A DNA stretch of 64,000 nt from a virus, in the IMG/VR virus record IMGVR_UViG_3300045120_000498, positions 62,001-126,000 of that record, one strand, 5' to 3'. This document shows positions 6,970-56,800 of the stretch, in pieces (within the stretch, counting starts at the first letter, position 1; each line of letters starts with the position of its first letter). The notes beneath the pieces were generated by a model, which saw only the letters and a program-made list of their open reading frames with translations, made no database searches and was not told the origin of the DNA. Made by a program: the position numbers and the translations under genes.

Positions 6970-6983
6970 GCCGTCCCCTTTCC

Positions 6984-6997
6984 GCGGTCAGTTCCGC
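6984..6997 (-). promoter_or_regulatory. Hairpin-plus-RBS leader of ku
   Basis: GCGG-AACTGA-CCGC on the minus strand, then GGAAAGGGG and the ATG of ku. The stem is shorter than in sister leaders. Confidence 0.55.
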
Positions 6998-7007
6998 TAT
7001 TGATCGG

Positions 7008-7030
7008 AGTCTAACACACGTTGTGTGTAT
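7008..7030 (-). promoter_or_regulatory. Early promoter of the 23-bp family driving ku
   Basis: Minus strand: ATACACAC, AA, CGTGTG, then TTAGACT. The palindrome is perfect and the extended -10 is TG-T-TAGACT. It begins inside the stop region of the upstream fibre-module gene, so ku is transcribed separately and shares its operator with the other early operons. Confidence 0.7.
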
Positions 7031-7404
7031 CAGGCGGCCCGGGTCACGTCCGGCAACACGAAGAACCTGCCGAGCGCCATCGTCTGCACCTCGCTCGTCA
7101 CGATCACCTTCACCTGCGTGTCGTAGAAGTACCGGCCCGGGTCGAGCACCGCCGTCTCCCCGGCCGGGATCACCACGTCCACGACGTGGTTGTTCGGCGG
7201 CACTCGGATCGCCATGTCGCCCGCGCCCATCCGCTTCCGGATCACCGCCTGCGAGTCCGGGTCGGCCGGGTCGATCTTCACCGTCAGCCACACCTCGTGC
7301 GTCGTGTCCGCAATCGGGAACGGCTGCATCGTGCCGCTGTCGTCCGGCTTCGCGAGCACCAGCGTGATCGTCGCCGTGTCGCCTCGAAGCACCTCGATGT
7401 CCAC
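7030..7404 (-). CDS. BppU-like baseplate or fibre-adaptor protein
   Basis: The 124-aa sequence follows the pattern of the BppU N-terminal domain and related small phage proteins. It opens with RGDTATITL and has VWLTVKID, a VVDVVIPAGETAVLDPG segment, a YFYDTQVKV strand and a GRFFVLPDVTR end. Such proteins join receptor-binding or fibre proteins to the baseplate. GTG at 7404 shares a base with the stop of the 2123-aa fibre gene (TAGTG) and has GGGGAGG upstream, consistent with a fibre module. Confidence 0.65.
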   Translation of the reverse strand: MDIEVLRGDTATITLVLAKPDDSGTMQPFPIADTTHEVWLTVKIDPADPDSQAVIRKRMGAGDMAIRVPPNNHVVDVVIPAGETAVLDPGRYFYDTQVKVIVTSEVQTMALGRFFVLPDVTRAA

Positions 7405-10400: not shown

Positions 10401-13400
10401 GATCTGCCGCGACTCCACGCCCGCGGGAGTGATCGTCCCCGCGAACGCGCGCAGGAACGCGCGCGACGCCGCCAGCACACCCGCAGGCGTGATCGTGCCC
10501 CCGAGCGGCGTGCCCTTCGTGATCGCCTTCGTCGGCGCACCGGCAGGCGTCACCGTCCCCGCGAGCGCCCGCACGACCGACTTCGCCAGCACGCCCGCAG
10601 GCGTCACCGTTCCCGCCGGAGGCTGCGTGCCCGTGGTCCCCTTGCCGACCAGCCAGGTGTCCGCGCTCGGCCCCGGCGTGATCGTGCCGCCAACGCTGAT
10701 CGGGTTCGTGACTCCCGTGACGACCGAGCCGCCGCCGAAGTCGTCGTACGTGGCCGAGGCGTCGTTCGTCCGGAACCCGATCCGCGTGCCGGTCGTCAGC
10801 GACGCATCGAGGACGCTCCCGATCACGTTCCACGCGCCCGCTCCGCCCGTCTGCTTGTAGACCGTGATGGTCGATCCGTACGCGCGGATGCCCACCTTGT
10901 CCCCGGCCGAGATGCCCCCGTTGAACGTCCCCAGCGTCGTGTACGTGCTCGGGCCGACGAACTTCTGGATCACGAACTGCCCGAGGCCGCCGTCGCCGGA
11001 CGGGTTGAACCACAACAGGTACGCCGTCGCGGACGTTGTGCCCGGGTTCGCGATCCGGACGTACAACTCGAACTGGTTCGGGAACGACGTGACGCACGTC
11101 AGGTACGCCTCGCAGTCGCTTGGGAACGTGGCCGCCGACCAGTAGTTCGACGACGGACTCGCGCCGCTCATCACGTTCGACGCGACGTTCATGCCGGTCG
11201 CCGCGTTGCCGATGGCGTTCGCTATCCAGTTGCCGGACGCCGCCAGCGTCGCGTTCGCGCGGTTGAAGTTGTCCAGCACCGACGTTGCCGGGAACGCGCC
11301 GCCGCTCGCCGGAGGCGTCAGCGTGTACGTGACCGCGACGCGGACGTAATCGAGCAGAACTTCCGTGACCGCCGACGTGGACGAGCCGGTGTTCGGCTTC
11401 ACGCCGATCCGCAGCTTGACCGGCCTGCTGGACGGGTCGAGCAGCCCGGTCTGATTCGCGCCGTCCGCACCCGCGTAGGTCGTGATGGCCGTGAACGCGG
11501 CGGGCGACGCCGAGAGCGTCTTCCGGACAGTCGTCCCCGCGCCGTCGCGAAGCTCGGCCGGACCGACCGTCGAAGATGCACCGGTCGTGTACGTCAGGCA
11601 TTGCCAGTCGTAGTCCAACTCGCACGCCGTGACGAGCGCGCCGGGAGGGACGCCCAGGTCCTCCCAGGTGCCCGTCCACTCCCAGTACGGCGTGCCGTCC
11701 GAAAGGCTCTTGCCGTTGCGGCGCGCGGAGAGGTTGCCGTTGATTGTGCTGCTCAACGGCTCATTGGGCGAGTCGGCGACGCCGCTCCACGCGCCCGTCA
11801 GGCCGGTGCCGCCGCCCGCGTTGAACACCCATCCCTCTAGCCCGGCGGTGAACGTGAACGGCGCGTCCATAGTCTGGACGAGCGACCCGGAAGCCTGATT
11901 CCATAGGCTCGGCGTGGCGCTCGACGACGCCGCGGCCCCGGCAGAGACGATCACCAGGAACTTCTCGCCTGGTGTCACGGTGATCGCCGTCGTCTTGCCG
12001 TACCCACCGCCGCCGCCACCCGCGCCGCTCGTGGTGGTCGATCCACCCTGCCCGCTGCCGCCAGGTCCCCAGACTTCGATGTCAATGCTGGTGTGTCCAG
12101 CCGCGACGGTGTGCACGTAGATGCCCGGCGTCGAGTACGTGGTGCCGTCCACGATCACCTTGCCAGCACTGCCAGCACCGCCACCCGCGAAGGTCGAGCC
12201 GTTGCTACCACCACCGGCGCCGCCGCCACCCGGTGCCGTTCCCGCGGCCGCAGCGCCAATGCCGATCACGCCGGAGCCGCCAGCGCCACCACCCGCCACC
12301 GCGACACCGCCAGCACCGCCCGCCGCACCGGTCGCGCCCGGGTTGCCACCCGCCGCTGTGCCCGCGCTGCCGCCGCCACCACCACCCGCCTGAGCGGAGG
12401 TTCCAGCCGCGCCGCCAGCGCCGCCTAGCCGAGGGGAGGCAGCCGAAGCACTGCCCGCCGTCGTGGGACCACTGGCCGATCCACCGCCTGTCGCGAGAAT
12501 GAGGAGCGCGCCAGCCAGAACGTACGTCGATCCGCCAGTAGCGCCAGCACCGGTAGTCCCCGGAAGGACGCAGGTCAGTCGTTGACCCGGCGTGACCGCG
12601 ATGGTCGTTTTCGCGTACGCGCCGCCGCCGCCACCGGAACCGGCGGAAACGTTCGTCACGCCAGCAGACCCGCCGCCACCGGCACCCCAGCACTCGATCA
12701 CGAGCGACGTGACACCGGCCGGAACCTGATAAGGACCCGTGCTGCTGACGGAGACGCCGTTCATGAGACACTTGCCGGGGAACGCCGCGGCCCCACCGGC
12801 CGCCGTAGTGGCGGTGCTACCGCCACCAGCAGCGCCACCGCCACCCGATGAGCCTGACCCACCCGCGCCGCCGCTCGTACCGCTGCCGCCTGCGACGCCA
12901 CCCGTTACAGCCGCGCCACCAGCGCCGCCCGCCAAAGAGGTTGCGCCCGGGTTCCCGTTCGCGGCCGTACCCGCGCTGCCGCCGCCGCCGCCACCCGTCG
13001 TCGTACCGGTCGCGCTTCTACCCGCACCGCCAGCCCCGCCCGAGAACGCCACGTCGCCGACGCACGACGCCGCCAGGCCACCCGCACCGCCCGTCAGGCC
13101 GACCGCGCCACCGCCACCGACCGCTCGGCACAGCAGATTGCCGACCGTGACCGGGGCGTAGTCAACGCTCGTCGCGACGTTGGCACCTGGATTGGTACTG
13201 GCAGTCACGGCCCCGGCGACGACCACCGTCAGCCTCGTGCCAGGCGTGACCGTCAGCGTCTTCTTCGCGTAGGCACCGCCACCGCCGCCCTGCCCGGAGG
13301 TAACGCCCGTCGTCCCCTTGCCGCCGGAACCGCCGCCAGCCCAGCACTCGATCACGATGGACGTGACGCCCGCAGCGACGGTGTGCGTGAACGTCAGCAC

Positions 13401-13775
13401 CCCGCCCGTCGCGTTGTCGTACGTGGTGCCGTCTACGATGGCCCGGCCTGCGGCACCGTTGCCGCCAGCGGACGAACCGGCCGTGTTACCACCAGCACCG
13501 CCGCCGCCCGGCGCAGTCCCCGCCCCGCCCACACCGGCGGTACTGCTGCCGCCAGCGAAGCCACCGGTCGGAGCCGCGCCGCCCGCACCGCCGGAAGCGC
13601 CGCCCGCCGCGCCGTTGTTGCCGTTCGATGCAGTGCCCGCGCTAGAGCCGCCGCCGCCGCCATTACCGGACGCCGCAGCAGCACCGCCCGAGCCACCCGC
13701 GAACACCACGTCGCCGATGGACGCCGCCGCAGTGCCGCCCGCGGCACCCGCAGGACCGGCAGCGAGGCAGATCAT
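7404..13775 (-). CDS. 2123-aa glycine-rich and repeat tail fibre protein
   Basis: N-terminal ~620 residues are glycine-rich modules typical of phage minor tail proteins (AGVTSIVIECW, GGGGGAYAK, VTPG repeated about four times). Then come two jelly-roll-like modules that begin LDNFNRAN or LDDFDRAN and end near DDFGGGS or FRGGS. Next are some 30 repeats of about 25 residues with the core AGTITPAG followed by an Arg-containing spacer. The C-terminus is Gly/Val-rich. The likely role is host-surface binding. The ATG overlaps the upstream stop. Compared with the internal copies, the first glycine-rich module starts in its middle, so the 5' end looks truncated or rearranged. Confidence 0.75.
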   Translation of the reverse strand: MICLAAGPAGAAGGTAAASIGDVVFAGGSGGAAAASGNGGGGGSSAGTASNGNNGAAGGASGGAGGAAPTGGFAGGSSTAGVGGAGTAPGGGGAGGNTAGSSAGGNGAAGRAIVDGTTYDNATGGVLTFTHTVAAGVTSIVIECWAGGGSGGKGTTGVTSGQGGGGGAYAKKTLTVTPGTRLTVVVAGAVTASTNPGANVATSVDYAPVTVGNLLCRAVGGGGAVGLTGGAGGLAASCVGDVAFSGGAGGAGRSATGTTTGGGGGGSAGTAANGNPGATSLAGGAGGAAVTGGVAGGSGTSGGAGGSGSSGGGGAAGGGSTATTAAGGAAAFPGKCLMNGVSVSSTGPYQVPAGVTSLVIECWGAGGGGSAGVTNVSAGSGGGGGAYAKTTIAVTPGQRLTCVLPGTTGAGATGGSTYVLAGALLILATGGGSASGPTTAGSASAASPRLGGAGGAAGTSAQAGGGGGGSAGTAAGGNPGATGAAGGAGGVAVAGGGAGGSGVIGIGAAAAGTAPGGGGAGGGSNGSTFAGGGAGSAGKVIVDGTTYSTPGIYVHTVAAGHTSIDIEVWGPGGSGQGGSTTTSGAGGGGGGYGKTTAITVTPGEKFLVIVSAGAAASSSATPSLWNQASGSLVQTMDAPFTFTAGLEGWVFNAGGGTGLTGAWSGVADSPNEPLSSTINGNLSARRNGKSLSDGTPYWEWTGTWEDLGVPPGALVTACELDYDWQCLTYTTGASSTVGPAELRDGAGTTVRKTLSASPAAFTAITTYAGADGANQTGLLDPSSRPVKLRIGVKPNTGSSTSAVTEVLLDYVRVAVTYTLTPPASGGAFPATSVLDNFNRANATLAASGNWIANAIGNAATGMNVASNVMSGASPSSNYWSAATFPSDCEAYLTCVTSFPNQFELYVRIANPGTTSATAYLLWFNPSGDGGLGQFVIQKFVGPSTYTTLGTFNGGISAGDKVGIRAYGSTITVYKQTGGAGAWNVIGSVLDASLTTGTRIGFRTNDASATYDDFGGGSVVTGVTNPISVGGTITPGPSADTWLVGKGTTGTQPPAGTVTPAGVLAKSVVRALAGTVTPAGAPTKAITKGTPLGGTITPAGVLAASRAFLRAFAGTITPAGVESRQIGKPLAGTITPASVLAKSLARLLTGAVSPVGALAKSWARTFTGTLTSGGPTGAYTRVGRYPSKSTTLDDFDRANGTVDVGGPGIWNTVSANDGIANVNVSALRMAAGAASGGVRGLITHSPPFDYQFEVPVLPTAASYVKFWWGIANPGSTFTAYALRLVQGSPNFTWELRGNVGGADTGVLASAAVPFAAGDTVGVRQVGPKIDFYRFTRSGGWSLVLTATNTLIPPVAGRFAFEFGDTTARVDVFRGGSATAARTGWVAPDAAVTPVGVETRQWARTLTGTVTPGPSADAYSITRTLTGSTAPTGALAANKVAGTTTYPITPGGTLSPTGAEVRSTTHLMAGTVTSAGVLARTLTRAVTAAGTITSAGVEKRSMGKLTAGTLSPTGVVARNTSHPMAGTITPAGVETRQTGKKTAGAVAPVGLLTKSIPRALAGTITSVGALARSTAHGVAGTLTPAGTLAASRAFVRAFAGAITPGPSALVQQTRKNVGGSITPGTSALRWALARTLTAALGLTGVATKSIPRSLAGAITSAGTETRQTGKKPTGAITPTASVTAMSHAYALALTAALAPAATLKRAMTKTMTGALAPAGAVTPIRGFLLSMGGTVAPAATLARNTGKALSALVAPTGTETRKLTRTFVGTVAPAGVVARSLARRLTGTITPAATLRFSTTRALAGSLAPIGNLFRSTGKPLTGAVGTTGAVARNTAKKATGTITPASTFATSKAYLVALSAALNPIGIMRRASTPRTVGSATPTSIVIRTTTTRYTGSTVPAGTETRQTARRMTGSVSPAATLATARAFLVALSGALALTAPLRRSVGKPLAGALAPTGARVKSSAKRFTAALPLSGADSVSHAVPLLISGALAPVGLVKRSAGKALGGAVAPVSAIRRALATAYAGLLSPQSDLLMATEAHIEADGIASTLTFGTPTVEAIVSRVGGVVAAVSDDEGRVLAGVGANGNGGGTIATVSGGVQAGVSVQTGASQMGTTVTVRRGGR

Positions 13776-14044
13776 CCGTCAGCCTCCAGCCCAGCGCCGA
13801 GTCCGTCAGCCCGCTTCCCCTGCCGGTAGCTGATCGCAAGCTCCGTGCTCCAGATCGGGTTCACGCCGACGCTCACGACCCCGAACGCGAAGTGCACGTC
13901 CACGTACGGACCGAACCTGATCCCCTCCCGCGCCGTGACGCGGCGGTGCCAGTCCACGTGCACGCCCGGCAGGATCGTGAAGCCCTGCGACAAGCACCAG
14001 TGCGCCGCCCACCAGGAGCCGTGCCGGGAATGCCAACCGGCCAT
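13772..14044 (-). CDS. 90-aa conserved-type small phage protein
   Basis: Rich in Trp/His (MAGWHSRHGSWWAAHW) followed by alternating beta segments (VHVDWHRRV, GPYVDVHFAFGVVSVGVN). This resembles small proteins of unknown function often found beside fibre genes in actinophages. Coupled to the giant fibre gene by an ATGA overlap. Confidence 0.55.
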   Translation of the reverse strand: MAGWHSRHGSWWAAHWCLSQGFTILPGVHVDWHRRVTAREGIRFGPYVDVHFAFGVVSVGVNPIWSTELAISYRQGKRADGLGAGLEADG

Positions 14045-14063
14045 GCTCCGGCGCCGCTAGCGC

Positions 14064-14777
14064 CTAGCCGCCCGCGGCGACGGTCAGGTCGTACGTCGCG
14101 GCGATGCTATCGCCGGACGACAGCGTGATCGCGGCGAACACCGTCCGGTCGAGCAGCGTGCCCGCCGTCGCGGCGCTGAACACGCCGTGCTCGCGGATCG
14201 CGGCGCCCGGCGTGGCGTCCACGGTGACGGTGCCGATGGTGCGGTAGACGGTCGCGCCGTTGTTCGTCTGGGAGCCGGTCGGCCGGGTGTTGTCCGGCGC
14301 GTACTCGGTCGTCAGTTCCGTCACCAGCGTGGTGTCGCCCGCGGCCTCCGCGGTGGAGCCGGTGCCGATCCCGTGGAACTTGAAGTTCGTCCCCGTCGTC
14401 ACGTCGTTCGCGCGCAGGAAATCGACGATCTTCGTCACGCCCGCCGTCGTCACGACCTTGTGGCCGACCAGGCCCAGGTCGAACCGCAGACCGTCCTCGC
14501 GGATCACTTCCAGGTACAGCGAGCCGTAGATCACGACCGCGCCGACCGCTCGCGCGGCGGCGACCTTCCGCAGCGAGCGCAGGTACAGCGGCATGTTCGC
14601 CGCGCGCCACCGGAACACGTCCGGCGTCAGGCCCGGCGTCGGCATCGACTGGCCCAGCATCTCGCGGACGGTCAGCGGCCGCTCGGGCAGCACCCGCTCC
14701 ATCGGCTCGATGACGCGGCCCGGCCGCTCGACCACGAGCGCCAGCCCTCCGCTCATGTTCGCCTCGCCTCCGTACAT
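14064..14777 (-). CDS. Putative virion or tail protein, 237 aa
   Basis: Two ATGs 24 bp apart each have GGAGG upstream; I use the first at 14777. The C-terminal 140 residues are Thr/Gly-rich beta sequence (KFHGIGTGSTAEAAGDTTL, FAAITLSSGDSIAATYDLTV), a pattern seen in phage structural proteins of fibre or decoration type. Its neighbours are the other fibre-module genes. Exact role unknown. Confidence 0.6.
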   Translation of the reverse strand: MYGGEANMSGGLALVVERPGRVIEPMERVLPERPLTVREMLGQSMPTPGLTPDVFRWRAANMPLYLRSLRKVAAARAVGAVVIYGSLYLEVIREDGLRFDLGLVGHKVVTTAGVTKIVDFLRANDVTTGTNFKFHGIGTGSTAEAAGDTTLVTELTTEYAPDNTRPTGSQTNNGATVYRTIGTVTVDATPGAAIREHGVFSAATAGTLLDRTVFAAITLSSGDSIAATYDLTVAAGG

Positions 14778-14788
14778 GGCCCGTCCTC

Positions 14789-14959
14789 CTACGTGTTCGG
14801 CTGAACGACCTGCGCGTCGTCGGCAGGCTCGGCCTCGGGTTCGCGTCGCGCTATCTCGGCGCCGATGGCCTGGACCTTCTCGCGGGCCGCCTCCCGCTCA
14901 TCCATCGCCTCAGTGAGTGCATCTGCCAGTTCGGCATCGCTCAGGTCATCGAGCGCCAT
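14789..14959 (-). CDS. 56-aa acidic coiled-coil protein
   Basis: Short, very acidic helical protein (MALDDLSDAELADALTEAM, then EREAAREKVQAI), likely a coiled coil. ATG at 14959. It lies between two putative structural genes of the second fibre module. Function unknown. Confidence 0.5.
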   Translation of the reverse strand: MALDDLSDAELADALTEAMDEREAAREKVQAIGAEIARREPEAEPADDAQVVQPNT

Positions 14960-14982
14960 CCGAGCCAGTATGACAGCCGGAG

Positions 14983-15387
14983 CTACAGGGCGAAGATGCG
15001 CGAGCTTCCGGCGTCCCACGAGATGATGATGTTGCCGCCGTTCGGGGTCACCGAGAACCCGTCGATGTACGCCACCAGGTCGCTCGTCGCCTCGGTGCCG
15101 GTGTCCTTGAACAGCAGGATCGCCTCCGACGGGTCACCCGTCACGGCCGTCAGCGTCGTGTCCGCCGCGTCGAACACGCCCGGCGACGGCTGATTGATCG
15201 TCCTCGACGCGAGCGCGGTCGGCGTCCCCACCCGCGCGGCGACCGCCACGTCGTTCAGGAAGTCGTGCGCGGTCGAGAACGTGTAGTCCGCGCTGTCGAT
15301 CAGCACGCACTTGATCCCGGCGTCGTTCTCCAGGTCGATGCCTGCCGTCAGCAACAGCGCCTTCACACTCGGGTACAGGTCCGACAT
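14983..15387 (-). CDS. Putative structural protein, 134 aa
   Basis: Beta-rich protein (HDFLNDVAVAARVGTPTAL, TLTAVTGDPSEAILLFKDTG, LVAYIDGFSVTPNG) of a type recurrent beside actinophage tail or fibre genes. The ATG at 15387 was preferred to an in-frame TTG at 15405; neither has a clear ribosome site. Confident as coding, weak on function. Confidence 0.6.
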   Translation of the reverse strand: MSDLYPSVKALLLTAGIDLENDAGIKCVLIDSADYTFSTAHDFLNDVAVAARVGTPTALASRTINQPSPGVFDAADTTLTAVTGDPSEAILLFKDTGTEATSDLVAYIDGFSVTPNGGNIIISWDAGSSRIFAL

Positions 15388-15413
15388 GCGTCGGATGATA
15401 CGCAAACCGTCAC

Positions 15414-15626
15414 TCAGGCGTGGTTCAGCGGGCGGCCCAGATCAGGCTGCGACATCGCCTCGAACCGCCTGCCCTGCACCCGGCCGCGGTAGTAGAACGA
15501 CGGGGCCGCCGGGACCACGCCCGGGCACCATCGCTCCGTCGGCGTCTGCCACGGGCACAGCCATTCATGCGCTGCGTGCGGCTCCATCTTCAGGCACCGC
15601 AGCATCGACGGCCGCGTGTCGAGCAT
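15414..15626 (-). CDS. Hypothetical 70-aa Cys/His protein
   Basis: Contains C-x7-H-x2-HEWLCPWQ and WCPG, a possible zinc or redox cluster. Starts 2-3 bp after the upstream stop. No family recognised. Confidence 0.5.
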   Translation of the reverse strand: MLDTRPSMLRCLKMEPHAAHEWLCPWQTPTERWCPGVVPAAPSFYYRGRVQGRRFEAMSQPDLGRPLNHA

Positions 15627-15630
15627 CGGC

Positions 15631-15996
15631 CTACGGGCCGCGGCGCAGGTCGATGCCGGGCGGCAGCACCACGTTCGGGATCACGACGCCGTTGTTTGGC
15701 GCCAGCCCGGCGGCCAGGCTCGGATCGTCCGCCATCGTCTTGTTCACCGCCTGTATCAGTTCGTTGATCATCGCCATGATCGTCGGGAGCGGCAGCGCCA
15801 CCTCGACGACGGCAGTCAGCACGTGCTCCGGCCCGCGCGCGGCCAGCCCGTCCTCCGTCGCCGTCCACCCCTCCGGCCCGTCGTCGCCCGGCTTCAGGTG
15901 GTACTCGACCTGCTGCGCCTCGACCAGCCGCAGGCGAACGCCGCCGGGGATTGACTCCGCCGACGGCGTTACGTAGCCCTCCAGCGTGAACTTCAC
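15631..15996 (-). CDS. Hypothetical 121-aa protein
   Basis: GTG at 15996 overlaps the stop of the HTH gene (GTGA), so it is co-expressed with it. It has an N-terminal beta region and a helical segment (TIMAMINELIQAVNKTMAD). No known domain seen. Confidence 0.55.
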   Translation of the reverse strand: MKFTLEGYVTPSAESIPGGVRLRLVEAQQVEYHLKPGDDGPEGWTATEDGLAARGPEHVLTAVVEVALPLPTIMAMINELIQAVNKTMADDPSLAAGLAPNNGVVIPNVVLPPGIDLRRGP

Positions 15997-16367
15997 GTCT
16001 CGGGCACCTCGCGCGGGACGCGCTTGCGGGCGAACGCCGCCGCGCGTACCGCGATGATCTGGGATCGCAGCCACACTGGGCCGGACCCGAGGATTGCGAC
16101 TGGCGTCGGGACCAGGCCGTTCCTGATCCACTTCGCGAGTCGCGGCTTCTCGACGGACAGGATCACCGCCGCTTCACCCGTGCCGACAAGCTCGTCGTCG
16201 AGCGGTGGTAGCTCCACGTTCAGGCGCTCCAGCACGCTCGCAACACGAACCTGCTTGACCCCGCTGTCGATCTTGGCCTGTAGCCACGCTCGTGTCTCCG
16301 GGGCGAGCATCGGCGCAAGCGAAGCATCGACCTGATCGTCCATTGGAGTCTCGATGCTGCTTGCCAT
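15993..16367 (-). CDS. HTH DNA-binding protein, probable phage regulator
   Basis: The 124-aa protein has a C-terminal MerR/excisionase-like helix-turn-helix (LVGTGEAAVILSVEKPRLAK, then WIRNGLVPTPVA and a GPVWLRSQI wing), preceded by a helical N-terminal half. Its ATG is 7 nt after the -10 of the promoter at 16375-16397, so the mRNA is probably leaderless, an arrangement also used by lambda cI. It is a candidate for the protein that reads the shared operator, but that link is inference. Confidence 0.7.
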   Translation of the reverse strand: MASSIETPMDDQVDASLAPMLAPETRAWLQAKIDSGVKQVRVASVLERLNVELPPLDDELVGTGEAAVILSVEKPRLAKWIRNGLVPTPVAILGSGPVWLRSQIIAVRAAAFARKRVPREVPET

Positions 16368-16374
16368 GTCACCC

Positions 16375-16397
16375 ACAATAGCACACGTTGTGTGCAT
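16375..16397 (-). promoter_or_regulatory. Early-family promoter for a leaderless HTH mRNA
   Basis: Minus strand: ATGCACAC, AA, CGTGTG, then CTATTGT. The -10 TATTGT is followed by 7 nt and the ATG itself. It is the only member without a hairpin or ribosome-site leader and has one base change in the upstream box (ATGC for ATAC). Confidence 0.65.
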
Positions 16398-17725
16398 TAG
16401 ACCGTTCCCGGCTCGGTGTAGATGGGGCGGCCCTTCCACGGCGCTCCGGCAGGCCCCTTCACGTATCCGGCGATCCACACGCAGTACGCGCCCTTCGAGT
16501 CCTGCCACTTCGCGTGGTCGGCAGTGGATACCCGCCAGTGACCGCGCACCAGGAACCGGACCGTCAGATAGTTGCCCGTCTCGTCCTTCGCGTCGCTGGT
16601 CGCCGTCGCGATGCTCACGTTGTAGATGCGCGACTCGAACCGCTGCCGCGGCGCCGCCCGGTGCATCTGCTTCAGCGCCTTGCGGGGCAGGAACGTCTCG
16701 CGGCGATCCACGTTGCGGGCCGTCACCATGTCGGCCAGCACGACCGCCCACGCCAGCATCGCGCCGCGGTAGGCGTACTCGGAGTCGGCCACCATCGGCT
16801 GGTCGGCGTCCATCGGGATGAACAGCGCGTCCGGGTGCTTCGCGACCGTCAGAAGCTCGTGCAGGTCCACCCGCTCGTAGCGGAGGCTGGACAGGATCGA
16901 CCCGTCCTTGAACCGGTGCCCGCTCGTCCGCTGGTAGTAGTCGGCCGGATCGTCCAGACCGCCCGAGCCGGAGGCGACGTACTCCCAGTCGTCCTTGCGT
17001 ACCACGATGATGCCCCACGACTGGCCGGGCACCACCTCCGTGATGCCCAGGCCCCATAGCTCGGACGTGTCGTTCGCGTTCCACACGTCCTCCGGCGGCG
17101 TGCCGTGCCAGAGCGGCATGAAGTCGCCGTTCGGGCCGCGCGCCTCGAACCACATCCGCGGGTACGGCAGCGGCGGAAGCTCCGTGAACGGCAGCCCGCC
17201 CCAGATCGAGTCGAGCACGCCCTGGGCGCCGTCCTCGCCGCCGTCCACCCGGTAGATGCCGCCGGTGCTCATCAGCGCGCGCAGGAACGTGTGCTGCTCG
17301 TGCAGCACCTCCTGATCCACGTCCGCCGTCAGGTAGCGACGAAGCTCCGGCGGAACCGCCCGCAGAAGCTCGTCGTGCGCCGACAGCGCCAACAGCCGCG
17401 CCTGGCCGGTCGGCGAGATGACGTTCCAGTCCACGTGCGTCTCGTCGTAGCCGGGGCTGTGGCGGACCATCGTGTGCTCCGCCTGATCGGTGATCGACAC
17501 CCCCTCGGGGTTCCCGATCATCGTCGAGCCGCCACGAATCCCTAGCTCGCCCGTCTCCCCGATGCCGACCGAAATCCCGGCCGCCTGAATCGCGTACTGT
17601 CGCGCCTTCCGGCGATTGACCACGCCCGGCGGCTCGCGCAGCGTCTCCAGCGCGAGCAGCACGTCCTTCTCCCGGTGCGGGATGCGATAGCCCTTCGCCA
17701 GCAGCAGCTTCTCCGCCAGCAACAT
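16397..17725 (-). CDS. Conserved phage protein of unknown function, 442 aa
   Basis: Long soluble protein. Its C-terminal ~80 residues follow a pattern common in actinobacterial phage and prophage proteins (FLVRGHWRVS, then YCVWIAGYVKGP and a PIYTEPGTV end). The middle is rich in Trp and acidic residues (GGLPFTELPPLPYPRMWFEA). No catalytic motif is evident. The start at 17725 is fixed by its promoter, hairpin and GGAAAGG leader. Confidence 0.65.
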   Translation of the reverse strand: MLLAEKLLLAKGYRIPHREKDVLLALETLREPPGVVNRRKARQYAIQAAGISVGIGETGELGIRGGSTMIGNPEGVSITDQAEHTMVRHSPGYDETHVDWNVISPTGQARLLALSAHDELLRAVPPELRRYLTADVDQEVLHEQHTFLRALMSTGGIYRVDGGEDGAQGVLDSIWGGLPFTELPPLPYPRMWFEARGPNGDFMPLWHGTPPEDVWNANDTSELWGLGITEVVPGQSWGIIVVRKDDWEYVASGSGGLDDPADYYQRTSGHRFKDGSILSSLRYERVDLHELLTVAKHPDALFIPMDADQPMVADSEYAYRGAMLAWAVVLADMVTARNVDRRETFLPRKALKQMHRAAPRQRFESRIYNVSIATATSDAKDETGNYLTVRFLVRGHWRVSTADHAKWQDSKGAYCVWIAGYVKGPAGAPWKGRPIYTEPGTV

Positions 17726-17743
17726 GATGACCTTGCCCTTTCC

Positions 17744-17758
17744 GCCGGATCATCCGGC
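17744..17758 (-). promoter_or_regulatory. Hairpin-plus-RBS leader
   Basis: GCCGGATGATCCGGC on the minus strand forms a 6-bp stem followed by GGAAAGG and the ATG at 17725. The stem sequence differs from sister leaders while the fold and spacing are kept, which supports a structural role. Confidence 0.6.
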
Positions 17759-17764
17759 AGGCGG

Positions 17765-17787
17765 AGCATAGCACACTCCGTGTGTAT
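17765..17787 (-). promoter_or_regulatory. Early promoter of the 23-bp family
   Basis: Minus strand: ATACACAC, GG, AGTGTG, then CTATGCT; extended -10 TG-C-TATGCT. Drives the 442-aa gene. Its upstream end touches the stop codon of the gene at 17787-18179. Confidence 0.7.
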
Positions 17788-18179
17788 CAGGTCGGCCAGG
17801 CTTCGATCACCGGCGGGTCGATCAGGTCGAGCGTGATCATGTCGCCCACCGTCGCCACCGGCGCCCGCCGCACCCGCACCCGCGTCGAACGCAGCCGCCC
17901 GTAGCTCGTGGTAGCCACCAGCGCCGTCACCGCGCCCCGCTCCCACACCACGCCGTCGCACAGGTGAAACAGCGCGAGCGCCTGCGCGAGCGGCATCTGC
18001 GCCTTCGGGTAGGCAGGCGCCAGCGTCTTCAGCAGCCCCTCCGACATGCCCGTCCCGTAGTGCGACTGCGGCCGCTCCACCGTCACGTGCACGTGCACCT
18101 CGATGGGACCCGGGATCGCCTCGTCCACCTCGGCCACCAGTTCCGACGGGTCGGACGGCTCGTGCAGCATCACGTCCAT
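17787..18179 (-). CDS. Hypothetical 130-aa protein
   Basis: No known motif. An N-terminal beta stretch (PIEVHVHVTVERPQSHYGTG) precedes a helical part and an Arg-rich C-terminus. ATG at 18179 was chosen over a GTG at 18188. It lies directly after rusA. Confidence 0.5.
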   Translation of the reverse strand: MDVMLHEPSDPSELVAEVDEAIPGPIEVHVHVTVERPQSHYGTGMSEGLLKTLAPAYPKAQMPLAQALALFHLCDGVVWERGAVTALVATTSYGRLRSTRVRVRRAPVATVGDMITLDLIDPPVIEAWPT

Positions 18180-18190
18180 CACGTCCACGG

Positions 18191-19090
18191 CTAGCCAAGC
18201 GTCAACTGCGTCTGCGCCAACTCCGCCGTGCACTCGATGCTGCACGTCTGCGGCGGCCGCTTCCTGGTGCCCGGGTTGAACGGCTCGCAACACACCGCGC
18301 AGCGCGGCCAGTGGTCGGTCCCGCGAGGAATCGTCGGATCGACGTACTGCATCACCGAGACGACGGTACGCGGATTCTCGGTGTCGAGCGTCATGCCCGT
18401 CGCCTTCGCCGTCACCTGCGCGTCGTCCAACCACAGCCCACCATCGTTTCCCGCATCGAGCACCAGCTTCTCCAGGTTGTCCACGTCGATCCGTCGCCGC
18501 GACCCGAGCGCGAAGAACAGGCCCAGCGCCACGTTCCCGCGAAGCGTCGGCAGCGTCGCGAAGCGGGCCGCCAGCACGTCCCTCGCGGCCGTCGCGGCCT
18601 TCGGCACGTAATGCCCCCCGTCCGGGCGCGTCCCGGCACGCGGCCACGGGACCGGCGCGCCAGGCACCTCGATCACCAGCCCGGTCGCGCCGTGGCGGCC
18701 GACCAGCCACCCAACCGACACGCCCGCGATCATCGACGCCTCGCCGCCCACCCGGCCGCCGTCCCGCAGCAGGTGCGTGCCGTCGTCGAACTCCACCCCG
18801 ATCCGGAACGCGCGGTCGATCACCGCACCAGCCGACCGGCCCATCTGATGCGCCAGCAGCGCCACCGACGCCACGCCGTCCGCGCGCGCCTCCGGGAACT
18901 CGGCCCTGATCCGCGCATCCTCCCGCGCCCGGAACACACGCCGGAAGTCGTCCCGGCGCCGCACGCCCTCCTTCTTGAACCGCTGCTCCACCGACGCCCG
19001 CTGATTGCCGACCTCCAGCGCCACCAGCGCCGTATGCCCGAGCCGCGCGTACGACTCGATCAGCGCCTCCAACGGCAGACTCCGCGCCAT
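18191..19090 (-). CDS. rusA: RusA-type Holliday junction resolvase with N- and C-terminal extensions
   Basis: Residues ~165-275 match RusA: an N-terminal strand (VIEVPGAPVPWPR), the acidic set RRRIDVDNLEKLVLDAG and WLDDAQVTAKATG, with the Asp residues expected to bind metal for cleaving four-way junctions. RusA is usually about 120 aa. Here ~165 residues precede it, with a helical region and a cyclic VALLAHQMGRSAGAVI segment that may be an HTH, and a four-Cys end (CAVCCEPF, then CSIEC) follows. ATG at 19090 has GAGGGGGG upstream. It fits the recombination and replication block. Confidence 0.75.
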   Translation of the reverse strand: MARSLPLEALIESYARLGHTALVALEVGNQRASVEQRFKKEGVRRRDDFRRVFRAREDARIRAEFPEARADGVASVALLAHQMGRSAGAVIDRAFRIGVEFDDGTHLLRDGGRVGGEASMIAGVSVGWLVGRHGATGLVIEVPGAPVPWPRAGTRPDGGHYVPKAATAARDVLAARFATLPTLRGNVALGLFFALGSRRRIDVDNLEKLVLDAGNDGGLWLDDAQVTAKATGMTLDTENPRTVVSVMQYVDPTIPRGTDHWPRCAVCCEPFNPGTRKRPPQTCSIECTAELAQTQLTLG

Positions 19091-19100
19091 CCCGCCCCCC

Positions 19101-19250: not shown

Positions 19251-19850
19251 TCACGAATCGGCCTTCCGATCCATCGACAGGTCCGGCACCGGCCCGATCT
19301 GCTTGACCACCGCCGGAGCCAGGATCGCAGGCAGCACGTTGCCCGTACGACGCCGGTCGAGCACCATCGCCTTCACCGCTCGCCGGAACCGGTCATCACG
19401 CTCGGGCACCAGGTTCCGGACGAACGCCCCGGAATCGTCCACGCCACCGGTCGTAGTCATGCCCCAATCACCCCACGACCCAGCCGCCAGCACGACCGCC
19501 TCCGCGATGATCGGATCGGAGAACTCCGGCATCGGCCGCTGCGTGCCACGGAACTTGCCGACCTCCGCGTACACCTCCGCCAGCCACCGGTTCGCGATCA
19601 AGTCCGGGTCAGCATCGACGCCGGTGGACTTCGCCGTCCACGCCTCCGCAATCTCCGGCCACGACGGCGGGAACGGCGAGCCACGCCGGAAGAAGTCGTT
19701 CACGACCGCCAGTGCGTGCTCCAGCGTCGCCTCCGGCGGCATCGTCCCAGCGACGACGGCGGCCGACTCGTCCGTCAGCGGATCGACCAGCCGCGGCGGC
19801 CACAGCGCCTTGATCGCCGCGTATACCTTCACCACGTCGCTCGCCTTCAT
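19251..19850 (-). CDS. Putative helicase-loader or primosome-type protein
   Basis: 199-aa helical protein whose N-terminus (VVKVYAAIKALWPPRL, then PPEATLEHALAVV and FPPSWPEIAEAW) follows the pattern of small phage replisome-organiser proteins of the G39P type, which bring the host replicative helicase to the initiator. It directly follows the DnaD/phg_2220-type initiator with a 4-nt overlap, the usual place for a loader. No Walker motif, so not a DnaC ATPase. Confidence 0.5.
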   Translation of the reverse strand: MKASDVVKVYAAIKALWPPRLVDPLTDESAAVVAGTMPPEATLEHALAVVNDFFRRGSPFPPSWPEIAEAWTAKSTGVDADPDLIANRWLAEVYAEVGKFRGTQRPMPEFSDPIIAEAVVLAAGSWGDWGMTTTGGVDDSGAFVRNLVPERDDRFRRAVKAMVLDRRRTGNVLPAILAPAVVKQIGPVPDLSMDRKADS

Positions 19851-20683
19851 CGCCCCTCGGCCTCCAGCCGATCCGCCATCGCCACCAGGTCATCGAACGT
19901 CTGCACCGACCGCCGCCCTGCTGGCCGTGAGCCGGTGCCGCTCCACTCCTTCGAGCGAGCGAGCGCGTTCGGGAAGGCGTTCGGTCCGAAGATCACGTTC
20001 AGTCGCGGCGCACCGTCCCACCACGGCGACGCAAGCTCGGCGGCGATCACCGCCCGGTAGTCGGTCATCTCCAGCGTCGGATTGTCGCGAAGGCGGCCTA
20101 CCACGAGCCGCAGGTGTTCCCGAGGTTTGAGCGTGACCTTCGTCCCGGCAAGCTCGTTGAACACGGCGACCACCGCCTCAGCTTGCCGGAACTCGTCCGG
20201 CGTGACCTTCGCTCCGAGCACGACCGTGCCGACGCCGACGTGGCCTGTCGGCTTCCGTGCATCTGGGACTAGGGTTGACGGTTCACCTGACGGTTCACCG
20301 CTTTCCGGTCGCGCGCGCGTAGGGCGCTCCTGGAGTTCCCCATTTTCTGCGGCTGGAGTTCCTGATAACGGCGCCGAAGTGGCGGCCCTGGGTTCCTCAT
20401 TCTCGAAGCCGTATAGCGCCAGCACGTCGGCCGTCGGGAAGACGAGGTAGACGTTCCCGCCGCGCCGCCGGTTCCGGATCGCGAGGACGCCTCGCTCGAC
20501 CAGCTTCGCGAGCATCGTGCTGATGTGCCGCTCAGTGCAGTTACAGGCTCGTGCGAGTCGCGACCGGCCGGGGAAGCAGTAGCCGTCGGGGTTCGCCGCG
20601 TCGGCCAGCGCGAGGAGCAGCACCTTCTCGCCGTTCGGCATGTCCGGGAGGTACAGCGCCCGGCCGAATAGCTCCGCGCTCAC
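19847..20683 (-). CDS. Phage replication initiator (winged helix plus phg_2220_C-like domain)
   Basis: The N-terminal ~90 residues are a winged-helix DNA-binding domain of the replication-initiator type (GRSRLARACNCTERHISTM, then LVERGVLAIRNRRRGGNVYL). A Pro/Glu-rich linker follows. The C-terminal ~100 residues (VVAVFNELAGTKVTLKP through LNVIFGPNAFPNALAR) match the conserved phage C-terminal domain of initiators. It should bind the phage origin and recruit the helicase through the next gene. The origin is not identified; AT-rich or iterated DNA may lie within the gene. Confidence 0.75.
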   Translation of the reverse strand: MSAELFGRALYLPDMPNGEKVLLLALADAANPDGYCFPGRSRLARACNCTERHISTMLAKLVERGVLAIRNRRRGGNVYLVFPTADVLALYGFENEEPRAATSAPLSGTPAAENGELQERPTRARPESGEPSGEPSTLVPDARKPTGHVGVGTVVLGAKVTPDEFRQAEAVVAVFNELAGTKVTLKPREHLRLVVGRLRDNPTLEMTDYRAVIAAELASPWWDGAPRLNVIFGPNAFPNALARSKEWSGTGSRPAGRRSVQTFDDLVAMADRLEAEGR

Positions 20684-21030
20684 GACCGCACCATCTCGTA
20701 GCTGCTGCCGGTAGCCAGGCCGCGCTCCCCTCCCTGCCCCACCGTGACCTCGCCCGCCTTCCGCAGCCGGATCAGTGACCTCCGAACGGCGGCGCGGGTC
20801 AGTCCCGTCTCGGCGGAGATGGCGAGGTGCGTCATCCCAGCAGCGGCACGTTCCGCGTTCGCCGTCAAGAACTCGCGGATGATCCGATCCTTGTCGGGCC
20901 GTCCGTTAGTGAGGTAGCCGCGGTCCGCCCACCGCGCCCGCGCGTCCAGTCGGCTTAGTTCCGCCATCTCCAACCGCAAGCGCGCTAGCTCGCGAATGCG
21001 CTCCTCGGCGCGGCTCCGTACCTGAGCCAT
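20680..21030 (-). CDS. Winged-helix DNA-binding protein, 116 aa
   Basis: A helical N-terminus is followed by a wHTH (HLAISAETGLTRAAVRRSLI, then RLRKAGEVTVGQGG). ATG at 21030 has GGGAGG 6-7 nt upstream, better than the ATG further up. Coupled by overlap to the initiator gene. It could be a replication accessory or regulator. The upstream region carries a plus-strand promoter and terminator. Confidence 0.65.
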   Translation of the reverse strand: MAQVRSRAEERIRELARLRLEMAELSRLDARARWADRGYLTNGRPDKDRIIREFLTANAERAAAGMTHLAISAETGLTRAAVRRSLIRLRKAGEVTVGQGGERGLATGSSYEMVRS

Positions 21031-21047
21031 AACCAGCCTCCCAGGCA

Positions 21048-21070
21048 TCGCGCACGCCATGTGCTACGCT
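21048..21070 (+). promoter_or_regulatory. Plus-strand promoter resembling the early family
   Basis: On the plus strand the 23-bp window ends in CATGTGCTACGCT, giving extended -10 TG-C-TACGCT, and matches roughly 13 of 18 fixed positions of the early promoter family. An overlapping partial match on the minus strand (21062-21084, ATACACGC then CGTGAGC) suggests a shared operator between divergent transcripts. Confidence 0.45.
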
Positions 21071-21076
21071 CACGAT

Positions 21077-21137
21077 GCGTGTATTTGTTTGGCGGCCGGT
21101 AGGGGCAGTAACCCCGATGATCCGGCCGCTTTTCGTT
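21077..21137 (+). ncRNA. Candidate plus-strand small RNA ending in an intrinsic terminator
   Basis: Downstream of the promoter at 21048-21070 lies a nested hairpin (GCGGCCGG 21092-21099 with CCGGCCGC 21122-21129, and inner GGGG/CCCC) followed by TTTTCGTT, a proper U-tract on the plus strand only. The predicted transcript is about 60 nt with no useful ORF. It would be the only plus-strand transcript in the window. Alternative: a terminator that only blocks antisense transcription. Confidence 0.45.
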
Positions 21138-21162
21138 CTAGCAGGACCGCCCCCGCAGCGTC

Positions 21163-21190
21163 CAACGTGACTTCCCGCACATAGCGGGAA
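21163..21190. repeat. Short inverted repeat in the 21.0-21.25 kb intergenic gap
   Basis: TTCCCGC and GCGGGAA flank a 5-nt loop in the roughly 215-bp gap between genes, next to the small-RNA locus. It could be a weak terminator for the gene at 21245 or part of an origin-like region; nothing else is evident there. Confidence 0.35.
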
Positions 21191-21244: not shown

Positions 21245-21649
21245 CTAATCCTCCGCCCGACGCACCCGGTGCATCCGCACCTTGTGCCGCCGCTCGGTGC
21301 CGTCCACGTAGCCGTCCTTGCCGAGATGATCGACGAACGCCACCTCCGTCACGATCCCCTCGACCCAGATGCGCACCCGCTCGCCCTTCTCGAACTGGCC
21401 CTCCACCGGCAGCGTCCCGCCCAGCAGCCGCATCGACGCCGACTCCGGCGCCTCGCCGCCCGCATCGAGCGTGATCGACCCGCCGGTGCCGGGAATCGGC
21501 ATCTGACCCAGCCGCGTCTCCAAGTCCTCGGCCTGCGCCTCGATGCTCGCCTCCGGATCACCCTCGCCGCCGTTGTCCGGCTGGCCCGGATCGTCCGGCT
21601 CGCCTTCGCCGTTGCCCGTGTCAGGGTCGGCCGTCTCGGCTTTCGCCAT
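21245..21649 (-). CDS. Hypothetical 134-aa acidic protein
   Basis: Acidic, low-complexity N-terminus (about 60 residues of D/E/G/P) and a compact beta-rich C-terminus (GERVRIWVEGIVTEVAFVDH then a basic end). ATG at 21649 has GGAGGG 4-5 nt upstream. Possible OB- or SH3-like fold, uncertain. Lies in the replication and recombination block. Confidence 0.6.
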   Translation of the reverse strand: MAKAETADPDTGNGEGEPDDPGQPDNGGEGDPEASIEAQAEDLETRLGQMPIPGTGGSITLDAGGEAPESASMRLLGGTLPVEGQFEKGERVRIWVEGIVTEVAFVDHLGKDGYVDGTERRHKVRMHRVRRAED

Positions 21650-21737
21650 GCTGCCCTCCAGTCTCGCGGTCGGTCGATCATTGCCGTTCGCACCGGCGGG
21701 ACGCAACGACAAACCCCGCAGGTAGCGACCGTTTCGT

Positions 21738-26305: not shown

Positions 26306-28093
26306 CTACACGTTCCTCACGTCTATCGTCACGGACGACCTCGACCACGCCGCCACCGCACTGCCGGACCGGTCAGTCCGCATACAGACCAGCAGCATCC
26401 CGTCCGTCAGCGCGGGCATCGCCTGCCAACCGCTGTCGATGACCTGGACTCCGGTGCCCGCCAGCGAGCCAGACGCCCCAACCACGGCAGTCAACGTACC
26501 CGCGCCGCCCGTGTCGGTGATGTTCACGTACCGCAACAAAACCGTCCACGTGCCGTTCGTCGCCACGCTGATCGCCGCCGCAAACTGCCAGCGCCACTGG
26601 ATCGAGCCACCCATCGCATTGATCCCCGACTTCAGCAGCGGAATGCCCATCTGCACGTAGCCGAGGTTCGATTGCGTCCACCCGAAAGACGCATCGGCGC
26701 GCATGTCCAGCCCGTTCGACGTGCTGTCCGTGACAACGCCGCACGACTCGAAGAACGCGAAAATCCGCATCGGGTTCAGCCGCGACGCGCCGCCCGCCGT
26801 GTCGTAGATGCCTTGCGTAAGCTGGTGCCGGTGGTCCGCTCGCGCATACCGCTTCGAGACGCCGACCGCTGCCGCCGAGTCGTCCACCACCACCGGCGCC
26901 ACCGCCGACGCCTGATTGATCACGAACGCCGTCGTCGCCACGTCCACGCTCACCGAGTCCACGGCCATCGTCGGCGCGGTCATCATCCCGGTCGCCGACA
27001 GCGTGGCGGCCTGGAACGACCCGTTCATCACCAGCCCGCCAGGGGCCGACCGCTTGATCGTCGTGTCAGGCAGCGTCGCGCCGCCCGGCCCGAACGCGAC
27101 CCGCCCGACGCCAGCCGTATCGACGCCCACCTCTGCCCGCGCCTCGGTGTCGCCCAGCGTGTACGCCCGCATCGCCATCCGCGTCGTCGCGTTCGGCGCG
27201 ATCACGTCCAGCATCCGCGCCGTCCCGGCCACGTCGCCGCGCACCTGGAGGTTGTCGTCCGTGCTCCACGTGTCGGCCGCAGACCGGTACAGGTTCGTGT
27301 CCGGCGGCGACGTGCCGAAGCCCGCCTCGATCATCGGGAAGCCGGTGGCCGTCAGGCCCAGCCGCATCCGTGGCTGCGCGTCGCCCGCCACGAACGCCCG
27401 CACCGACCCCGCCGCGCCCGCCGGTTCGTACAGGTCGATGAACCGCGCCGCGCCCGCCGTATCGCCGCGCACGCCGAGCGAGTCGTCCGTCCGCAGGTCA
27501 TTCGCCCCGGCCCGGTACAGGTTCACGTCCTGCGCCGCCGCGCCAGTGCCCATCAGCAGCGTGCCGTCCGCTCGCAACACGACCCGCGGCAGCGCGTCGC
27601 CGCGCACCCGGGCCTGAAGGAACGTCGCCGCCGCCGTGCCGCCGATGAAGTCCTGCCAGTCCGCCGTCCGGATGTCGAGGATCACCCGCGTGATCGACGT
27701 GCCGTCCCACTCGACCGACCCGATCTGCCTCGACAGCGGCGCCGCAGGCGTGCCGGACGAGCGAATCTCCATCCCGAAGGCGTACACCGTCGAGTCCGAC
27801 TCCGGCGGCCCCGGCGCGAAGCTGTTGTCCGTCGCCGTCAGCCACAGCGTGTGCGTCGCCGCGGCGCCGCCCGGGTCGGCCGCCGTGATGTTCCCGACGA
27901 TGTACCGCCACTTCGCGCCGACGGCTGCGCACACCTGGCCGTTCCCCGCCGACGCAGCCACCTGCACCGTCGTCGCGTTCACCAGCGACACCCGGAAGTT
28001 GGGCGACACGTACGTGCCGATGAACTCCTGAATCTGATCGACCCACTGCTCCGGGAGCGCGTCCCCGTAGTTCAGGATACGATTTTGCGTCAA
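26306..28093 (-). CDS. Tail fibre protein, 595 aa
   Basis: A beta-rich head (LNYGDALPEQWVDQIQEFI) leads to repeats of the form NLYR-x-TDD-x-L-x-VRGD-x-AG-x-AR (for example near 27260 and 27470) and a long fibrous tail ending in a compact C-terminal domain. This pattern is usual for phage side fibres. I use a TTG at 28093, 2 nt after the HNH stop, with AAAGG about 13 nt upstream; no better start exists. Follows baseplate genes, so it is probably the main receptor fibre. Confidence 0.7.
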   Translation of the reverse strand: MTQNRILNYGDALPEQWVDQIQEFIGTYVSPNFRVSLVNATTVQVAASAGNGQVCAAVGAKWRYIVGNITAADPGGAAATHTLWLTATDNSFAPGPPESDSTVYAFGMEIRSSGTPAAPLSRQIGSVEWDGTSITRVILDIRTADWQDFIGGTAAATFLQARVRGDALPRVVLRADGTLLMGTGAAAQDVNLYRAGANDLRTDDSLGVRGDTAGAARFIDLYEPAGAAGSVRAFVAGDAQPRMRLGLTATGFPMIEAGFGTSPPDTNLYRSAADTWSTDDNLQVRGDVAGTARMLDVIAPNATTRMAMRAYTLGDTEARAEVGVDTAGVGRVAFGPGGATLPDTTIKRSAPGGLVMNGSFQAATLSATGMMTAPTMAVDSVSVDVATTAFVINQASAVAPVVVDDSAAAVGVSKRYARADHRHQLTQGIYDTAGGASRLNPMRIFAFFESCGVVTDSTSNGLDMRADASFGWTQSNLGYVQMGIPLLKSGINAMGGSIQWRWQFAAAISVATNGTWTVLLRYVNITDTGGAGTLTAVVGASGSLAGTGVQVIDSGWQAMPALTDGMLLVCMRTDRSGSAVAAWSRSSVTIDVRNV

Positions 28094-28095
28094 GG

Positions 28096-28677
28096 TTACC
28101 GCCCGCCCTTTCGGAGGTTGCAGGCTGGATGAGTGACCTGCACGTTGTCGTAGGCGTGAGCACCGCCGAGCGCGAGTGGCACTACGTGATCGAGGTGCCA
28201 GCGTGCCGGGTCTGCGGCCTCGTGGCAGATTCCGCACACACCTCCGTCCCGCTCGAACACGACCGCACGATCCACTCTCTCGACTAGGACCTCCAGCTTC
28301 CGCGCTCGCCGCGTTCCCTGGACGCTGGTATGGAGCGACCGGCGTGCCGCGGCGAACTCGGGGTCGGCATCCATGCGCTCCGCGATGTACCGGCGGCTCG
28401 CGTCCGGATGAGCTTCGCGCCACGCCCGCGAGCGGAGCCGCCGCCGCTCTCGCTGCTCCGGCGTCAGGTTCGCGTTCGCCCGCCGGTGCTGCTCCTTGAC
28501 GGCCTCCGGATTCGCCTCTCGCCACGCCTTCGCGGCAGCCTTGACCTGCTCGCGGAACACCGGATCGTTGGCGTACCGTCTCTGCATACTGGCGGCCGAC
28601 CGCTGGCGGGCCAACTCGGGGTGCGCTCGATTCCACGCCACAGCGCGGTCAATATCGCTTTGGCTGCTGGCCGCCAT
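28096..28677 (-). CDS. HNH endonuclease inserted in the tail operon
   Basis: 193 aa: an Arg/Ala-rich helical DNA-binding N-terminus with repeated short helices (PEQRERRRLRSRAW and similar) and a C-terminal HNH domain (CGICHEAADPARWHLDHVVP, then DNVQVTHPACNLRKGGR) with the HxD-H/N residues expected for metal-dependent cleavage. Its start overlaps the baseplate gene stop. Free-standing HNH enzymes in late operons are usually homing endonucleases. Confidence 0.85.
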   Translation of the reverse strand: MAASSQSDIDRAVAWNRAHPELARQRSAASMQRRYANDPVFREQVKAAAKAWREANPEAVKEQHRRANANLTPEQRERRRLRSRAWREAHPDASRRYIAERMDADPEFAAARRSLHTSVQGTRRARKLEVLVERVDRAVVFERDGGVCGICHEAADPARWHLDHVVPLALGGAHAYDNVQVTHPACNLRKGGR

Positions 28678-56246: not shown

Positions 56247-56726
56247 TCAGTCGCAGCCGGGCGGCCCCACCGGGCGCCACCCGTCGGACTTGCGCGCGTC
56301 CGGGCGGAAGGTGCGCACCCAGACGTTGCCGCTCATCCCGCGGCCGTTGCCGTCCAGCATGACCACCGCCGGAGCAACCTCGCGCTCCTCGACCTCGCGG
56401 TAACCGCGCTTCGCCAGCGTGGACTCGCGCGCCGGGCGCACCGGCAACCACTGGTCAGTGGAGTCCAGGCGCCACTTCCAGCCGTAGCGCGTCTGCACCT
56501 CGCGCGCGTCCGTCTCGGTGCCGTCCAGGCGCACCAGGCGCGTCCGCGTGAACGTCCACATGCCGCCCGCGTCCGCCACCTCCGCCGCGATCCGGTCGCG
56601 CTGCGCGCAGACCCCGTTCGCCCACTGCGACAGGAACCCGTCGGTGTCGCACCGCTCGAAGCTCTCCGCCGCGCGCGTCTCCGCCTCGTTCGCCCGAGCG
56701 CGAAGCTCGTTGCCGGTCATCGTCAT
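56247..56726 (-). CDS. Hypothetical 159-aa protein
   Basis: Helical N-terminus (MTMTGNELRARANEAETRAA) with conserved-looking Trp and a beta-rich second half (YGWKWRLDSTDQWLPV). Start fixed by its promoter, hairpin and GGAAAGG leader; monocistronic, ended by the terminator at 56198-56230. Confidence 0.65.
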   Translation of the reverse strand: MTMTGNELRARANEAETRAAESFERCDTDGFLSQWANGVCAQRDRIAAEVADAGGMWTFTRTRLVRLDGTETDAREVQTRYGWKWRLDSTDQWLPVRPARESTLAKRGYREVEEREVAPAVVMLDGNGRGMSGNVWVRTFRPDARKSDGWRPVGPPGCD

Positions 56727-56745
56727 CTCCGAAACCTGCCTTTCC

Positions 56746-56762
56746 GCGGGGCCTCTCCCCGC
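56746..56762 (-). promoter_or_regulatory. Hairpin-plus-RBS leader
   Basis: GCGGGG-AGAGG-CCCCGC on the minus strand, then GGAAAGG. Identical in stem and loop to the leader at 58425-58441. Confidence 0.65.
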
Positions 56763-56768
56763 ACCCGC

Positions 56769-56800
56769 AGTGTAGCAGGTATCGCACACGTTGTGTGTAT
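56769..56800 (-). promoter_or_regulatory. Variant early promoter with shifted -10
   Basis: Minus strand: ATACACAC, AA, CGTGTG as usual, then a 9-bp insertion (CGATACCTG region) before TG-C-TACACT, making 32 bp instead of 23. Either the -10 moved or a nearer TGCGATACCT is used. It is the only family member with altered spacing. Confidence 0.55.

Follow-up and report, generated by a model that had tools for sequence, protein, structure and literature searches.

The 127,514-bp virus record IMGVR_UViG_3300045120_000498 (70% GC) carries the gene set of a contractile-tailed phage, including sheath, capsid, terminase, RecT and a Ku homologue, and was analysed over a stretch of 64,000 nucleotides (bases 62001-126000 of the record), hereafter the window. 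Searches of the contig, which may be incomplete, detected no tyrosine integrase, ParA-type ATPase or HTH_3 protein. The segment had been described as coding exclusively on its minus strand, a reading that held for the whole contig: none of the plus-strand open reading frames tested had a match in PHROGs, and long minus-strand frames (e.g. 7404-13775 and 26306-28636) span the doubtful stretches where a simple gene caller proposed plus-strand ones.

The locus under study occupies the short interval ahead of two replication genes (Table 1). As anticipated by the original prediction, a gene for a small winged-helix-type (wHTH) protein and an O-like initiator gene lie directly downstream of it on the minus strand. 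The wHTH protein gave a helical AlphaFold model (pLDDT 81) with no significant match in the PDB. The GTG start codon of the initiator overlaps the wHTH stop codon (GTGA), so that translation of both genes is probably coupled in the window.

Table 1. Features of the replication leader region, with positions in the window
Feature	Position	Strand	Basis
Replication initiator, O-like/DnaD-like	19847..20683	-	Several PHROG replication-initiation families, best E 3.7e-14; Pfam HTH_36
Small winged-helix-type (wHTH) protein, 116 aa, encoded directly after the leader	20680..21030	-	PHROG 1687 MarR family, E 4.5e-5
Ribosome-binding site GGGAGG for the ATG at 21030	21037..21042	-	Sequence
H2 hairpin with an outer stem of 8 bp, 2 nt ahead of the ribosome-binding site	21045..21078	-	The leader's one 8-bp stem besides H1
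TGTGCTACGCT, extended -10-like site inside H2	21060..21070	+	Counterpart at the matching place in L016
AATACACGCATCGTGAGCGT, degenerate copy of the phage-wide operator/promoter element	21066..21085	-	14/20 to the 20-base core; matrix score 2.7
Hypothetical ~62-nt antisense RNA (linker, H1, U-rich end)	21077..21138	+	Inferred from the -10-like site and T-rich tail
H1 hairpin: 8-bp outer stem, internal loop, 4-5-bp inner stem	21092..21129	-	In plus sense, the terminator hairpin of the original prediction
T-rich tail TTTTCGTTCT after H1 in plus sense	21130..21139	+	Sequence
TAGAAC box, candidate minus-strand -10, 5 nt ahead of the H1 base	21135..21140	-	23/28 match to L016
TTGGAC, weak possible -35, 19-nt spacer	21160..21165	-	Sequence; TTG alone matches the consensus, spacer long

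Among the viral contigs searched, the locus was recovered from one other record, IMGVR_UViG_3300045303_000171 (L016), whose gene order matches, whose proteins are mostly 40-70% identical and whose RecT is 57% identical. No other of these contigs carried it, blastn and tblastn searches of annotated phages returned no close relatives, and it was absent from the bacterial genome contigs. Three further candidate relatives were set aside, two of them (L007 and L019) as related or near-identical pieces not extending to the locus and the third (L021) as too distant. A covariance model found no second copy of the leader in 219 kb, and no Rfam family matched the whole window at the gathering threshold; local searches extended to E 10 gave nothing in the window and chance-level matches only in L016. 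An additional hairpin-pattern scan for more copies used the spacing of L016, which fits L016 only and could not match the window's own spacing, so that its outcome is no evidence of absence. The comparative claims on the leader concern two sequences, the window and L016, and the associated probabilities are post hoc.

In L016, the interval from the homologue of gene 21245-21712 to the initiator lacks the wHTH gene and keeps the element. The segment TAGAACGmAAAGCGsCsGGATCnTnGGG is 23/28 identical without gaps at L016:19772-19799, a score reached by 1 of 1000 shuffles, and in L016 its TAGAAC box is preceded in the minus sense by a TTGACA at 17-nt spacing (TTGACA-17-TAGAAC, chance 0.0024). Leaders of 110-114 nt counted from TAGAAC in the minus sense contain exactly two places with an 8-bp stem in each phage. 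The first, H1, stands at 11-48 from the box in both and extends outward to 8-51 in L016, while the second, H2, spans 62-95 (window) or 58-94 (L016). The chance of a stem at the matching place is 0.006 for each hairpin, and both occurred together in 0 of 20,000 shuffles. The order common to both phages, in the minus sense, is TAGAACG(A/C)AAAGCG, H1, a linker, H2 close to the ribosome-binding site (2 nt away in the window, 7 nt in L016) and the first replication gene, with H1 ending ~60 nt before the start codon.

The stems differ in sequence between the two phages and remain paired. Two pairs of H1 differ, both through compensatory double changes, and three pairs of H2 (arms GCATCGTG/CGCGATGC against GCGACGGG/CCCGTCGC, counted by hand) likewise differ and are all compensated, giving five double changes and no broken pair over the 16 pairs of the outer stems. 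The leaders also fold better than shuffled sequences (z -4.5 in L016, z -2.8 in the window). In these two relatives, pairing has been kept through compensatory change, in the manner of a structured 5' leader, and the box and its spacing would fit such a leader within the 5' UTR of a regulated mRNA.

The strand of this element is not decided by H1 alone, whose folding energies are nearly equal in the window (-25.5 kcal/mol on minus, -26.1 on plus) and which folds better on plus in L016 (-31.5 against -25.8). H2 is more informative: in the window its minus fold is the more stable (-18.2 against -13.6 on plus), and one U-G pair is standard on the minus RNA only. Nearly all of H2 also falls beyond the limits of the proposed plus RNA, so that the anatomy is best accounted for by a minus-strand leader. 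On this reading, what has been conserved is primarily a leader on the coding strand. Because of the placement and fold of H2 and the TTGACA-17-TAGAAC arrangement of L016, we favour a minus-strand promoter followed by a two-hairpin leader, which probably controls the phage replication operon. Its place is also retained despite a different following gene and unlike N-terminal domains of the initiators. Against this interpretation, TAGAAC lacks the usual final T of a -10, the putative -35 of the window is poor, H1 is predicted to fold no better on minus, and the extended -10 found on the plus strand would be left unexplained.

Under this preferred interpretation, a promoter with TAGAAC as its -10 would start a minus-strand mRNA from the base of H1 or close to it. 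This mRNA would bear a ~105-nt 5' leader with H1 at its 5' end and H2 just ahead of the ribosome-binding site, and its first gene would be the wHTH gene, coupled through GTGA to the initiator, in the window and the initiator itself in L016. The leader would most likely set the amount of initiator, through mRNA stability (the 5'-terminal H1) and through ribosome access (H2 beside the Shine-Dalgarno sequence). The transcription start, the direction of regulation, any ligand or partner and any effect on copy number are what we infer from this layout.

The region had originally drawn attention as a possible source of a small plus-strand RNA, and part of that proposal stands. The predicted succession of a promoter-like site and, ~60 nt later, a hairpin (-26 kcal/mol) followed by a T-tract was borne out. 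A 50-nt piece holding the hairpin folds with z -3.3 against shuffles; shuffled sequence nevertheless yields 0-2 hairpins (at or below -20 kcal/mol) with a T-tail per strand, so the hairpin and its tail alone are not beyond chance and are raised above it by their conservation in L016. The hairpin had been called the only one in the window to carry a clear U-tract, which holds approximately; a stronger one, with TTTGCGTAT, is present on the minus strand at 56200. In L016 the tail after H1 reads TTTGCGTTCT in the plus sense, its U-tract being merely UUUGCGUUCU with three U (TTT) inside the stem, so that termination on plus would be weak there.

The promoter-like site had been assigned to the early promoter family of the phage, which consists of 26 minus-facing copies of the palindromic GATACACACnnnGTGTGCTAnnnT in the contig, most of them followed by a small hairpin (e.g. 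TGCGGGGAGAACCCCGCGGAAAGG) and a start codon. Family membership was defined by at least 15/20 matches to GATACACACnnnGTGTGCTA (n = 26 sites), and members score 20.8-46.3 bits with a matrix built from these sites. The plus-facing site bears a genuine likeness to the family and is the third best match on the whole 127-kb plus strand; its score is weak (9.6 bits) and the members face minus. No -35 accompanies it in the window. On the minus strand the scores are 6.7 bits at the same place and 2.7 bits at 21085, where the degenerate operator copy and a promoter element at L016:14684 have the 15-mer GCTCACGATGCGTGT (plus sense) in common. With members at 20.8 bits or more, these values do not support a working family promoter at the site, and a minus-facing operator copy was rejected as the explanation of the whole site.

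What keeps the plus strand in play is register. The extended -10 (TGNTACNCT; TGCTACGCT in the window, TGGTACTCT in L016) is separated from the end of the TAGAAC box by 79 nt in the former and 78 nt in the latter (chance 0.010), and the plus RNAs that would end in H1 are alike in shape and length (62 and 61 nt), with a U-rich tail in the window. A -10 in register inside H2 makes a ~62-nt antisense RNA plausible, similar to lambda OOP (PMC3349717) or to the counter-transcripts of plasmids (PMC5703833). Both strands would then be transcribed, the minus strand giving the leader and the plus strand a ~62-nt RNA starting within H2 (~21077), antisense to the leader of the replication mRNA. We consider this a realistic possibility, although we lean against it. 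H1 would serve as both terminator and pairing hairpin. The RNA would be complementary to H1 and linker along their whole length, and its pairing with them would act by opening H1, by attracting RNase III or by changing how accessible the ribosome-binding site is; synthesis of the initiator would then be held down as copies accumulate. The putative RNA overlaps the leader and not the wHTH reading frame. Several points weigh against it: the -35 missing in the window and the weak U-tract of L016, the conserved T-rich strip that the minus-strand TAGAAC box explains as well, and the -10 site itself, just 11 bases long and also the reason for choosing the region. The antisense or regulatory RNA originally proposed thus keeps its -10 in register and its hairpin at equal distance in L016, while the conserved set as a whole fits the minus strand better.

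A broader proposal, which we put forward only tentatively since we hold it rather improbable as a whole, is that a large myovirus coding on one strand controls its initiator, coupled to a wHTH gene, by a plasmid-style RNA pair (the leader and its ~62-nt antisense), forming a new RNA family common to otherwise divergent phages. If true, an uncultured group of high-GC phages would possess a compact unit of leader and antisense RNA, and the new RNA motif could be used to seek such units in other phages.

The inverted repeats could instead act as DNA, either as origin hairpins or as operator half-sites bound by the wHTH protein, by the initiator or by the phage-wide regulator, as their position beside the initiator and their overlap with the degenerate operator copy would allow. 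We regard this as unlikely: the stem sequences vary while pairing persists, which fits RNA better than protein sites, the U-G pair of H2 is standard on the minus RNA alone, and no convincing origin iterons were found around the site. Lower still do we rate a stand-alone plus-strand RNA that carries a terminator of its own and whose targets would be host mRNAs or other mRNAs of the phage. The promoter-like site, the 60-nt interval, the hairpin and the T-rich tail do follow one another in the right order for it, but H2, the TTGACA-17-TAGAAC of L016 and the fixed distance to the ribosome-binding site would be left unexplained, and complementarity to other phage sequence is short, the longest stretch beyond the locus being 11 nt and compositional. 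Chance, i.e. a GC-rich palindrome beside a fortuitous -10, can draw on the shuffle frequency of such hairpins and on the ~0.6 occurrences of TGTGnTAnnnT expected per strand in 64 kb (an estimate from base composition), but is hardly credible given that the box, both stems and their spacing are conserved in a relative with such divergent proteins.

Lambda and plasmids offer well-described cases in which RNA controls the start of replication; a literature search turned up little of the kind for other phages. The OOP RNA of lambda is a self-terminating antisense RNA of 77 nt directed against the cII-O mRNA and encoded beside the O initiator gene; it overlaps the neighbouring regulator gene cII and silences it with RNase III (PMC3349717). 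The RNA predicted here would resemble it as a short self-terminating transcript upstream of an O-like initiator gene and opposed to the surrounding transcription. It shows no sequence kinship with OOP and would pair with an untranslated leader, where OOP pairs with a regulator gene at its 3' end.

Plasmids provide counterparts of similar size, with RNAI of pT181 (87 nt, complementary to the repC leader), RNAII of pMV158 (48 nt, in a plasmid where the copG repressor gene precedes repB in one operon) and the counter-transcribed antisense RNAIII of pIP501 (PMC5703833). The likeness lies in a leader hairpin opposed by a small RNA, predicted here on the strand opposite the initiator leader, and, in the window, in the gene for a small DNA-binding protein before the initiator; the differences are that a terminator-attenuator before the initiator is absent here and that L016 has no wHTH gene. 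RNA-based origins without RepA have also been proposed for extrachromosomal mycobacterial prophages (PMC7157519), which would extend RNA control of replication to phages of actinobacteria; here, by contrast, an initiator protein is present.

Other observations concern the promoter family and not H1 or H2. Copies of GATACACACnnnGTGTGCTAnnnT in the window (minus, e.g. 3661, 4412, 7031, 17788, 53232, 56801 and 58471) have one arm that coincides with an extended -10 and are mostly followed by a leader hairpin and GGAAAGG ahead of the start codon. Judging by this layout, it may be a phage-wide regulon element, reminiscent of the ESAS/SAS of cluster K mycobacteriophages, where a 13-bp start-associated sequence is accompanied by 17-bp imperfect inverted repeats (PMC3203893). 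Both combine an inverted repeat, a leader hairpin and a start codon in many copies of one orientation; the sequence differs, and the repeat overlaps the extended -10 here. L016 has its own diverged element at 14060, 14694, 15593 and 16209, made of TCACGnnGCGTGTTATACTTGAG and the leader hairpin GTGCGGGG, which suggests that operator specificity may have changed together with its regulator. Half or full palindromes facing each other occur at 2341/2361 of L002, 10284/10327 of L004 and 689/709 of the window, and are possible operators without promoter function.

The initiators of the window (19847-20683) and of L016 (19886-20740) share a conserved C-terminal half and have unlike N-terminal winged-helix halves, a difference that, from the alignment, would be a module swap below the conserved leader. 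The hairpin at 56200 of the window (minus) consists of GCGCCCGGTTGGCACATGCCAGCCGGGCGC followed by its T-tract, with a folding energy of -29.3 kcal/mol, and resembles a strong terminator near the end of gene 56247-56936. The Ku homologue carried by the phage is encoded at 6130-6969 (minus) and a protein with a zeta-toxin-like domain at 63046-63993 (minus) of the window, while contig L002 holds one open reading frame of 4149 aa (6646-19095, minus) and phage contig L003 a GMC-type oxidoreductase (9357-11060, minus).
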